Below are positions 31,758-35,125 of a DNA stretch of 64,000 bases, in pieces. The notes under the pieces are model-generated. The model was given only the letters and a program-made list of their open reading frames with translations, had not been told where the DNA came from and did not search any database. Source of the stretch: Neolewinella agarilytica (GTDB lineage: Bacteria > Bacteroidota > Bacteroidia > Chitinophagales > Saprospiraceae); contig NZ_FOFB01000008.1 in the NCBI RefSeq assembly GCF_900110645.1, forward strand, positions 62,001 to 126,000. The letters are read 5' to 3'. Both the position numbers and the translations under genes were made by a program. How positions within the stretch are numbered: the first letter of the stretch is position 1; each line of letters begins with the position of its first letter.

Positions 31758-31832
31758 GGTCGAGGAATTGTATTCCGAGCCCTGACGAAATAAGAAAATA
31801 GCGACCGGTACTCGGAGTGCAACTCCTCGACC
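31758..31832. repeat. REP-like long hairpin element, copy 1
   Basis: Arms of 22 bases (beginning GGTCGAGGAATTGTATTCCG, ending CGGAGTGCAACTCCTCGACC) match at 19 positions and flank a 31-base centre. On the minus strand the mismatches become G-U pairs, giving a full hairpin in RNA. A related copy with the same neighbours occurs 630 bases away. Confidence 0.75.
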
Positions 31833-31835
31833 ATT

Positions 31836-32237
31836 ACGGTTCTCGTGGGATTTGACCGCCGCAGGCAGCCACGAAGTGCACCCATCATTCCACGCCCCCC
31901 TTTCCCCTTTATTCTCGCGGTTCCCGCGGGATTCGACCGCCGCAGGCAGCCACGTAGTGCACCCATCAACCCACGCCTCCCTCCCCCCCTTTTTCTGCGG
32001 TTCCCGCAGGATTTGACCGCCGCAGGCAGCCACGTAGTGCACCCATCAACCCACGCCTCCCTTCCCCCCCTTTTTTACGGTTCCCGCGGGATTTGACCGC
32101 CGCAGGCAGCCACGTAGTGCACCCATCAACCCACGCCTCCCTTCCCCCCCTTTTTTGCGGTTCCCGCGGGATTTGACCGCCGCAGGCAGCCACGTAGTGC
32201 ACCCATCAACCCACGCCTCCCTTCCCCCCCCTTTTTT
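31836..32237 (-). repeat. Five tandem 80-81 bp units built on the tRNA-Asn 3' half
   Basis: Five units begin at 31836, 31917, 31997, 32077 and 32157. Read on the minus strand each contains the end of tRNA-Asn: GGCGTGGGTTG (anticodon stem and variable region), then an insert of about 25 bases (GTGCACTACGTGGCTGCC then TGCGGCGG) in the T arm, then TCAAATCCCGCGGGAACC (T loop to acceptor end), then a poly-A/poly-G spacer. The three units nearest the tRNA are nearly identical; the outermost is most diverged, as expected from repeated duplication next to the gene. Open frames here are an effect of the repeat. Confidence 0.85.
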
Positions 32238-32238
32238 G

Positions 32239-32310
32239 CGGTTCCCGCGGGATTTGAACCCACAACCCACGCCTTAACAAAGCGTCGCTCTACCATTGAG
32301 CCAGAGAACC
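32239..32310 (-). tRNA. tRNA-Asn (GTT)
   Basis: A full cloverleaf folds: acceptor GGTTCTC/GGGAACC, D stem GCTC/GAGC, anticodon stem ACGCT/GGCGT with loop TTGTTAA (anticodon GTT), T arm GTGGG TTCAAAT CCCGC, discriminator G. CCA is not encoded. Its 3' end directly abuts the tandem repeat array built from its own 3' half. Anticodon GUU makes it a substrate of the queuosine enzyme Tgt. Confidence 0.93.
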
Positions 32311-32387
32311 AAAATGACCCGTCACGGGCGGCGTGCCGGCGTTGTTCGCCGGGCCGCCCGTCGGGTTCCAGGATGATTTATCTTCGG

Positions 32388-32460
32388 ACGAGGAATTGCA
32401 TTCCAAGTCCAACCAGGCCAGTGCCGTAGGGTGAGATATTCGGAGTACAACTCCTCGACC
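32388..32460. repeat. REP-like long hairpin element, copy 2
   Basis: CGAGGAATTGCATTCCAAG and TCGGAGTACAACTCCTCG form arms like those of copy 1, around a different 33-base centre. As at copy 1, the right arm is joined within a few bases (ACCA then a CGGT acceptor end) to a partial tRNA 3' half, here of tRNA-Asp. Confidence 0.72.
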
Positions 32461-32463
32461 AAT

Positions 32464-32538
32464 GCGGTAACGACGGGGCTCGACCGCCGTAGGCAGCCGC
32501 GAAGCGCACCCGCAACCCAGCAAAAAACCTTAGTACGT
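32464..32538 (-). repeat. Partial tRNA-Asp 3' half with T-arm insert
   Basis: On the minus strand this reads GGGTTGCGGGT, an insert (GCGCTTCGCGGCTGCC then TACGGCGG), and TCGAGCCCCGTCGTTACCGCA. The outer parts equal the 3' half of the adjacent tRNA-Asp, and the insert is a relative of the one in the tRNA-Asn units (same GGCTGCCT core and spacing). It has lost the 5' half and cannot be a tRNA. Confidence 0.85.
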
Positions 32539-32539
32539 G

Positions 32540-32611
32540 CGGTAACGACGGGGCTTGAACCCGCAACCCCAGGATAGACAATCCCGAATTCTACCATTGA
32601 ACTACGTCACC
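32540..32611 (-). tRNA. tRNA-Asp (GTC)
   Basis: Cloverleaf: acceptor GGTGACG/CGTTACC (one G-U), D stem GTTC/GAAT, anticodon stem CGGGA/TCCTG with loop TTGTCTA (anticodon GTC), T arm GCGGG TTCAAGC CCCGT, discriminator G. CCA not encoded. Third in the Lys-Ile-Asp-Asn transcription order. Confidence 0.92.
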
Positions 32612-34123: not shown

Positions 34124-35125
34124 ATGCGCCTAGATCACATTGGCATCGCCGTAGGAGACCTCGATGCAGCTGACGAACTCCTTGGCCGCCTCCTCGGCCG
34201 GCCGGCCTATAAGCGGGAAACCGTAGCCAGCCAACACGTCTCCACCAGCTTTTTTGACGCTGGCGCCGAAGGCGCCAAGATAGAGTTGGTCGCTCCCGAA
34301 GGAGCAACCGGCCCCATCCAAAAGTTTCTCGAAAAACGAGGCCCCGGCATTCACCACCTCGCCTTTGAGGTAGACGACATTGAGGCCGAAATGCGCCGGC
34401 TGGCGGAAGATGGCTTTGAACTCCTGCAGGAGAAACCTTCCCGTGGGGCAGACAACAAGCTCGTCTGTTTCCTGCACCCCCGCAGCACCAATGGCGTGTT
34501 GGTGGAAATATGCCAGAGTATCCCCGGAGGCATGACCAAAGAAGAAAACGCGCAGTTCTGGGCCCGGCGCTACGCCGAAGAAAAGACGGGCTGGGACATC
34601 GGCTACCCCTCTCCGCCCATCACCAACTACCTGGACAAACTCAAGGATAAGGACCTGAAAATCCTGATCCCCGGAGCCGGCAATGCCTACGAGGCAGAGT
34701 ATGCCTGGCAACAGGGCTTCCGTAACGTTTTTGTGCTCGATGTTGCCGCCGCTCCACTGGCGGGGCTGCAGCAGCGGGTACCTGATTTCCCGGCGGAGCA
34801 ATTAATTCAGGGCGACTTCTTTTCCCATGCCGGGCAGTATGACCTCATTCTGGAGCAGACCTTCTTCTGCTCTTTTGAGCCCGACCCGGCTACCCGGCAG
34901 GCTTACGCCAAACAGATGCATTCCCTGCTCAAACCCGGTGGCAAACTGGCGGGTCTTTGGTTTGACCTCCCAACGGGCACCTCCCGTCCTTTTGGCGGCA
35001 GCAGGGAGGAATACCTCTCTTATCTGGAACCTTACTTCAACCTCCTGGCCTTCGCTAAAGCTCCCGACTCCATAAAACCCCGCGCCGGGAATGAATTTTT
35101 CGGCGAATTTCAAAAACCTGCATGA
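34124..35125 (+). CDS. Fusion: methylmalonyl-CoA epimerase + TPMT-like methyltransferase
   Basis: A 333-residue protein. Residues 1-133 are a complete methylmalonyl-CoA epimerase (VOC fold: LDHIGIAVGDLDAA, GPGIHHLAFEVDDI, NGVLVEICQ with metal-binding His and Glu). After six residues a methionine (codon 137) starts a thiopurine-methyltransferase-like domain with FWARRYAEEKTGWDIG, ILIPGAGNAYEAEYAW, QGDFF and PGGKLAGLWF. Each part has the length of an independent protein. GGAGG lies four bases before the internal ATG, so the second domain could also be made alone. The stop codon overlaps the MFS transporter start (ATGA). Confidence 0.88.
   Translation: MRLDHIGIAVGDLDAADELLGRLLGRPAYKRETVASQHVSTSFFDAGAEGAKIELVAPEGATGPIQKFLEKRGPGIHHLAFEVDDIEAEMRRLAEDGFELLQEKPSRGADNKLVCFLHPRSTNGVLVEICQSIPGGMTKEENAQFWARRYAEEKTGWDIGYPSPPITNYLDKLKDKDLKILIPGAGNAYEAEYAWQQGFRNVFVLDVAAAPLAGLQQRVPDFPAEQLIQGDFFSHAGQYDLILEQTFFCSFEPDPATRQAYAKQMHSLLKPGGKLAGLWFDLPTGTSRPFGGSREEYLSYLEPYFNLLAFAKAPDSIKPRAGNEFFGEFQKPA

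Follow-up and report, generated by a model that had tools for sequence, protein, structure and literature searches.

Partial tRNA copies in Neolewinella agarilytica are interrupted by a 24-nt insert that is a very small, structured, dispersed repeat found only in the genus among the genomes searched. We consider it probable (roughly 0.6, on sequence evidence) that this insert is a putatively mobile element resembling the small dispersed repeats (SDRs) of cyanobacteria, which would insert at T^T and be kept in tRNA arms where a tandem duplication spares the real tRNA. At 24 nt, the insert is about as short as a potentially mobile sequence can be, and insertions of this kind would show one route by which tRNA pseudo-copies arise and persist. 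Neolewinella would provide a second SDR-like case in another phylum, with exact sites, pairs of empty and filled sites, counts of 1 to 69 per genome and capture in tRNA loops, and the family makes the mechanism testable by strain comparison and by a co-occurrence search for the enzyme.

Interrupted tRNA copies in the window

The window, i.e. the whole 64,000-nt stretch of N. agarilytica DNA that was analysed, carries genes for tRNA-Lys, tRNA-Ile, tRNA-Asp and tRNA-Asn in this order on the minus strand (ARAGORN), and comparison of the window with Rfam at gathering score returned nothing beyond these four tRNAs. A preliminary description of the window had proposed five tandem units of 80-81 bp, each consisting of the 3' half of tRNA-Asn with an insert in the T arm, and one unit of the same build downstream of tRNA-Asp. 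Both sets were borne out (Table 1), and the insert in each of the six units is exactly 24 nt at GGGT^TC within the T loop. The units do contain the 3' part of the tRNA; they start at the 3' side of the anticodon stem, so that the T arm is the one complete arm. Spacings between the Asn units are 81, 80, 80 and 80 bp, within a repeat span of 31834-32257. Judged against the intact gene, the insert reads GCACTACGTGGCTGCCTGCGGCGG in four Asn units and GCACTTCGTG... in the distal one, and comparison with intact tRNA-Asp gave GCGCTTCGCGGCTGCCTACGGCGG for the insert of the Asp copy. The T-stem halves and the acceptor 3' strand of the Asn and Asp copies are otherwise a near match to the intact genes. 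A generic scan of the window for tandem hairpins identified six on the minus strand, which were precisely the six units, and one on the plus strand, compared to two to three in shuffled sequences.

Table 1. Positions of intact tRNA genes, partial copies, 24-nt elements and REPIN-like pairs in the window
Feature	Position	Strand	Source
REPIN-like inverted pair of GGTCGAGGARTTGYAYTCCGA, a distinct dispersed repeat, following the Asn array	31758..31832	.	
Five tandem units of 80-81 bp, each with the tRNA-Asn 3' part (GGCGTGGGTTG... to CCGC), downstream flank and a 24-nt T-loop insert	31834..32237	-	
24-nt element, Asn unit 5 (distal), CACTTCGTG variant	31856..31879	-	
24-nt element, Asn unit 4	31937..31960	-	
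24-nt element, Asn unit 3	32017..32040	-	
24-nt element, Asn unit 2	32097..32120	-	
24-nt element, Asn unit 1 (closest to the tRNA), at GGGT^TCAAAT	32177..32200	-	
Intact tRNA-Asn (GTT)	32238..32310	-	ARAGORN; Rfam
Second REPIN-like inverted pair, following the Asp copy	32386..32460	.	
Lone partial tRNA-Asp copy running from the T arm to the 3' end of the acceptor, T loop with the element	32464..32521	-	
24-nt element of the Asp copy, at GGGT^TC	32484..32507	-	
Intact tRNA-Asp (GTC)	32539..32611	-	ARAGORN; Rfam

RNA folding of complete Asn and Asp units predicts a minimum in which the insert pairs with tRNA parts, and a T arm bearing two hairpins differs from this predicted minimum. None of the five other genus genomes having a Lys-Asp-Asn cluster contained partial Asn or Asp copies; these genomes shared words of only 12-13 nt, at the distances of neighbouring tRNAs. 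The Asn and Asp arrays are lineage-specific. The tRNA cluster was absent from orthologues of the relA neighbourhood (17 of 53 loci scanned); the closest relA relatives belong to Neolewinella (87-75% identity). In a separate observation, the window ORF at 34124-35125 fuses a glyoxalase-type domain (Glyoxalase_4) and a TPMT-type methyltransferase domain (Pfam).

A structured repeat with precise insertion sites

The consensus of the insert is [G/T]CGCTTCGCG[G/T]CTGCCTNCGGCGG, which forms two tandem mini-hairpins. A 17-mer of the insert had 29 matches with up to two mismatches in the 6.22-Mb genome, compared to eight for the control, while a 23-nt core had 51 matches with up to three mismatches and none when the pattern was reversed, ruling out chance similarity. 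A covariance model (R1) yielded 52 matches in N. agarilytica at E<=0.01 and 77 at E<=10. Across 30 genomes, N. agarilytica included, R1 matched all 19 from the genus, with 1 to 69 matches per genome, and none of the 11 from other families. Under stricter filters two of 296 genomes of the phylum matched, both within the genus, and a search for plasmid homologues gave a lowest E of 0.1 among the 40 records listed out of 82. The three genome-wide matches in one genome (G003; G, C and L numbers are our handles for genomes, contigs and loci) appear to be its three tRNA-Trp copies, a pattern that inheritance fits better than active spread.

The fold was examined with 38 distinct 27-nt sequences, picked from the fetched matches by sequence only (up to four mismatches). 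Two hairpins, CGC-TTC-GCG and CTGCC-TNC-GGCGG, were paired in 97.0% of cells. Double-sided changes were present in five of the eight pairs, with 18 double-change cells versus 2.0 in shuffles (0/500), and sliding the partner positions lowered every pairing measure. One hairpin pair was retained as U-G in 35 of the 38 sequences. We conclude that the element has a conserved secondary structure with compensatory changes; in isolation, its two-hairpin fold is predicted at -11.0 kcal/mol.

At 154 distinct junctions the base to the left of the 24-mer was T in 153 and the base to its right T in 152, with C following in 99. After grouping by context (51 groups of 152), T was found on the left in 50 of 51 groups and on the right in 50 of 51. 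We also joined the flanks of 162 elements after deleting 16-33 nt and searched all fetched DNA for the resulting empty sites. Deletion of 24 nt gave matches for 23 of the 162 elements, whereas every other length from 16 to 30 nt, as well as 33 nt, gave none. One match at 31 nt and seven at 32 nt may reflect short tandem repeats of about 8 nt. Of the 18 distinct empty/filled pairs listed, eight fall within short tandem repeats in a single genome (G005), a setting that makes an empty match easier to obtain. Elsewhere, the empty copy of a G004 site lies on another contig and is identical over 32/32 positions, the anticodon loops of tRNA-Arg and tRNA-Trp gave pairs with two mismatches of 32 and four mismatches, respectively, and repeats of G017 include filled and empty copies within one 3-kb stretch (one mismatch). 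Judged from these paralogous sites, insertion of the 24-nt element is precise; the empty sites could equally well be explained by precise excision. A search for nested insertions with a loose pattern picked up ordinary element copies.

Stem scores of at least 12 were obtained for 11 of 55 context groups, compared to 7.6% of the T|T sites that served as controls (P=0.010 over all groups). The corresponding values were P=0.004 in N. agarilytica (n=18) and P=0.14 in the other genomes (n=37). An earlier, over-permissive control placed 33 of the 55 groups in hairpin loops versus 49%, and the TT/AA sites of tRNA-Trp sit in loops anyway (by eye). A preference of the element for hairpin loops is modestly supported.

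Two further settings were seen. At L183 (G017:C6:3216-3529) four copies with about 96-bp spacing occupy a repeated stretch that includes filled and empty repeats within 3 kb; a length of 24 nt would preserve a reading frame. At L225-L244 (G005) many elements lie inside tandemly repeated units about 8 nt long (CATTCACG type), a setting that recalls the short tandem repeats known as hosts of cyanobacterial SDRs.

tRNA-derived targets

Of the 52 matches in N. agarilytica, 43 are over 1 kb away from the nearest of its 49 tRNA genes. Copies of the insert without linkage to tRNA sequence were the refuting observation named in the preliminary description, and exclusive linkage to tRNAs is rejected. 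Its proposal that one element captures or duplicates the 3' ends of tRNAs is not supported: the repeated unit is the 24-nt insert alone. The nine remaining matches are all inside tRNA-derived copies. These targets account for five of 48 independent events, where the share of tRNA genes would predict 0.03 (P ~2e-10; P = 1.5e-5 with a ten-times-larger target). We conclude that tRNA-derived targets are strongly over-represented among the insertions.

Flanks of the 49 tRNA genes, up to 1.4 kb per side, were surveyed for partial copies by shared 12-mers. Such copies adjoin 11 of the 49: Asn, Asp, Trp, Arg-CCG, Thr-GGT, Gly-GCC, Ser-GCT, Ser-GGA, a second Asp, Ala-GGC and Val-TAC. The 24-nt family is present in the Asn, Asp, Arg and Trp copies; by eye, the others hold different small hairpins, and the Val copy holds none. 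Upstream of the intact tRNA-Arg gene is a full-length pseudo-copy with two 24-nt inserts, one in the anticodon loop and one in the T loop; Arg copies were found in two of the 19 genomes with a match (G000 and G005). The same insert in the same loop of Asn and Asp copies had been taken to imply a single element, and to this extent the proposal stands, as the Arg and Trp copies also point to one recurrent element.

Among the other copies, those at tRNA-Ser (GGA), tRNA-Gly (GCC), tRNA-Thr (GGT) and tRNA-Ser (GCT) (L302, L276, L270 and L277) share a motif close to GAGCGNAGCGAYCACGAC, in reverse GTCGTGRTCGCTNCGCTC (by eye), which is possibly a second element family. Next to the second tRNA-Asp (L275) and tRNA-Ala GGC (L294), TCCCGC..GCGGGA palindromes replace parts of tRNA arms in the copies, and ORF fragments between these copies resemble a small GIY-YIG endonuclease (by eye).

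An intact tRNA-Trp gene was found in 21 genomes of the genus, and in 13 of them partial copies flank it on one or both sides within tuf-trpT-secE (L371-L391). One genome (G014) retains a remnant and seven have no copies; in G009 and G018 the flank is truncated by a contig end. The 5' part is copied upstream and the 3' part downstream, with one to six copies on one side. By eye, a structured anticodon-loop insert, which is antisense and shows pair-preserving variants, is present in one or more copies in all 13 genomes, and several also have copies with inserts in the D loop (AAT^TGG) and T loop. The upstream copies of G030 contain a TCCCGATAGCTATCGGGA palindrome. The presence of Trp copies was patchy on a tree of tuf and nusG DNA from the 21 genomes (G009 without tuf, G018 without nusG).

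In the model that we favor, part of a tRNA gene and its flank would be tandemly duplicated, such that a 3' part yields a downstream copy, a 5' part yields an upstream copy and one gene stays intact. That 3' copies lie downstream and 5' copies upstream would follow because tandem duplication of one tRNA end leaves an intact gene. The element would then insert precisely between two T residues, usually at T^TC, into a loop of the spare copy without target duplication, and slippage or unequal crossing-over could amplify the filled unit into an array such as the 80-bp one of tRNA-Asn. An insert in the sole copy of a tRNA would be lethal, and inserts would therefore be seen in spare copies. The element may tend to occupy palindromes and stem-loops generally. 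It probably moves in trans, through an enzyme acting on folded single strands; a single-strand DNA route would fit the lack of target duplication, the occurrence of both orientations relative to the tRNA and the two hairpins.

Several other explanations were considered. The partial copies and their structured inserts might instead be selected functional RNA elements, serving as processing, termination or regulatory domains of tRNA operons, with the dispersed copies being secondary. Trp copies in 13 of 21 genomes, with a pair-preserving anticodon-loop insert in all 13 and D- or T-loop inserts in some, would be expected if this were so; the seven genomes without copies, the single remnant, the patchy distribution on the tree and a one-sided copy number ranging from 1 to 6 would not. 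Moreover, Arg copies occur in two of 19 genomes, Asn/Asp copies occur in N. agarilytica and in none of five relatives, and the tRNA parts track each species' own tRNA, as repeated duplication predicts. We judge a functional origin unlikely on this evidence. In a similarly doubtful variant, tRNA stem-loops of this genus would be where a family of tiny hairpin elements prefers to land, opening folded single strands at T^T and loading the D, anticodon and T loops of spare tRNA arms; the flanking tRNA-like domains formed in this way at tuf-trpT-secE would have been retained because they contribute to expression of the operon or the tRNA. If true, this would represent a new class of tRNA-derived, insert-stabilised RNA elements made by one of the smallest mobile DNAs.

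It is also conceivable that nothing is mobile, and that replication slippage and template switching at hairpins duplicated and copied an abundant hairpin motif. In its favor, the arms of tRNAs form strong hairpins and tandem duplication is a common event. Against it, slippage would yield ragged lengths, and the unit is exactly 24 nt, with T on both sides in 152-153 of 154 junctions in unrelated contexts. This explanation seems to us improbable.

REP-like pairs and known systems

The REP-like hairpins reported at the end of both copy sets are real, with four occurrences of TCGAGGARTTGYAYTCCGA in the window versus 0.08 expected. However, each set ends in an inverted pair of GGTCGAGGARTTGYAYTCCGA rather than in a single hairpin, and this pair lies 3 nt past both the Asn and the Asp copies. 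The REP-like repeat had 23 genome-wide matches with up to three mismatches (two for the control), of which 16 are in inverted pairs and only the four in the window have a tRNA within 1.5 kb. We rejected the hairpin as a part of the 24-nt element, since it is dispersed independently and occurs elsewhere without tRNAs.

The preliminary description had found no related transposase in the window and had pointed to an IS200-like REP transposase or a tyrosine recombinase as the enzyme to look for. Among the eight neighbouring ORFs (of 32 ORFs listed) no recombinase or transposase family was identified in Pfam. Y1 transposase genes are present elsewhere, with five in the N. agarilytica genome and 70 in the genus, distributed over 20 of 21 genus genomes. 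At the 15 of these 70 loci that were examined, including all five of N. agarilytica, there was neither an R1 match nor a REP-like hairpin beside the gene, and a core pattern with six mismatches gave weak matches only, in two loci.

These results bear on the original model, in which a composite element, e.g. a REP/RAYT system or an integrative element that carries the 3' ends of tRNAs, captures tRNA ends. The common layout of the Asn and Asp copies and the inverted pair 3 nt beyond both are what one would expect from it. The model is nevertheless largely refuted, as inserts and REP-like repeats occur separately: the 43 distant inserts have no tRNA within 1 kb, the REP-like repeats elsewhere have none within 1.5 kb, tRNA 5' parts are duplicated too (Trp and Arg), as ordinary tandem duplication predicts, and the eight ORFs nearby match no recombinase or transposase family in Pfam. 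We now consider it very improbable. That each insert is a tiny intron, excised from the tRNA at the RNA level, is more improbable still, for although the Arg copy minus its two inserts is an almost complete tRNA (by eye), an intact tRNA adjoins the interrupted copies examined (ARAGORN), such that the interrupted gene is not the functional one, the Arg copy has two anticodon-stem mismatches, most copies are tRNA halves and the Trp anticodon insert is antisense.

By analogy, the closest known kind of element appears to be the cyanobacterial SDR, and the SDR-like mobile element that we favor would work in a similar manner. SDRs of heterocystous cyanobacteria are reportedly 21-27 nt long, are said to have a predicted structure with compensatory changes, and reportedly occur in one clade only, with copies in other repeats and in heptamer tandem repeats. 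The 24-nt element falls within this size range and is likewise dispersed (52 matches). GCGAT-GCCTACGGCGGGCTACGCCTA-CGC, which we take to be a Nostoc SDR motif, also consists of two tandem mini-hairpins with TNC loops; it had matches in 55 plasmid records from Nostoc and relatives, 34 of them from Nostoc. No homology between the two was found, as R1 gave no significant match on 80 kb of two Nostoc plasmids (best E 0.28), a comparison limited to one motif among the SDR families. To our knowledge, tRNA-derived targets are not a feature of SDRs. SDR5 is described as inserted precisely in HIP1 (PMC4390886). The Neolewinella element differs in its phylum, its length of 24 nt and its T^TC site.

REPINs are described as inverted REP doublets tied to a RAYT gene (PMC3116915). 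The 24-nt element resembles the REPIN/RAYT system in being short, non-autonomous, palindromic and without its own transposase (PMC3116915). Unlike a REPIN, it consists of one unit with two hairpins in tandem instead of an inverted doublet, and no R1 match was found at the 15 Y1 loci examined. It is the GGTCGAGG pair of the window, not the insert, that is REPIN-like, 16 of the 23 GGTCGAGG matches being inverted doublets.

The tandem units of the window, with a tRNA 3' end and a position downstream of the tRNA, share these features with the rtT repeats of E. coli tyrT, which are not known to have a loop insert, whereas the window units do. Elements integrated in tRNA genes through att sites of tyrosine recombinases also leave partial 3' tRNA copies near an intact tRNA, as seen in the window; unlike these, the window copies are immediate neighbours, tandem and without cargo, and other tRNAs have 5' copies. 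An integrase-type element was rejected because there is no cargo between tRNA and copy and no recombinase family in the eight nearby ORFs. The literature covered, with few of the subscription journals, yielded no description of insert-bearing tRNA copies like these in this group.

Apart from these comparisons, one Y1 transposase gene (L424 1327-2157, G000:C58) lies between long inverted repeats (CCGGGGCTAAGGATGTTGG...), and a repeat related to CCGGGGCTAAGGATGTTGG... in L024 contains the 24-nt element (by eye).
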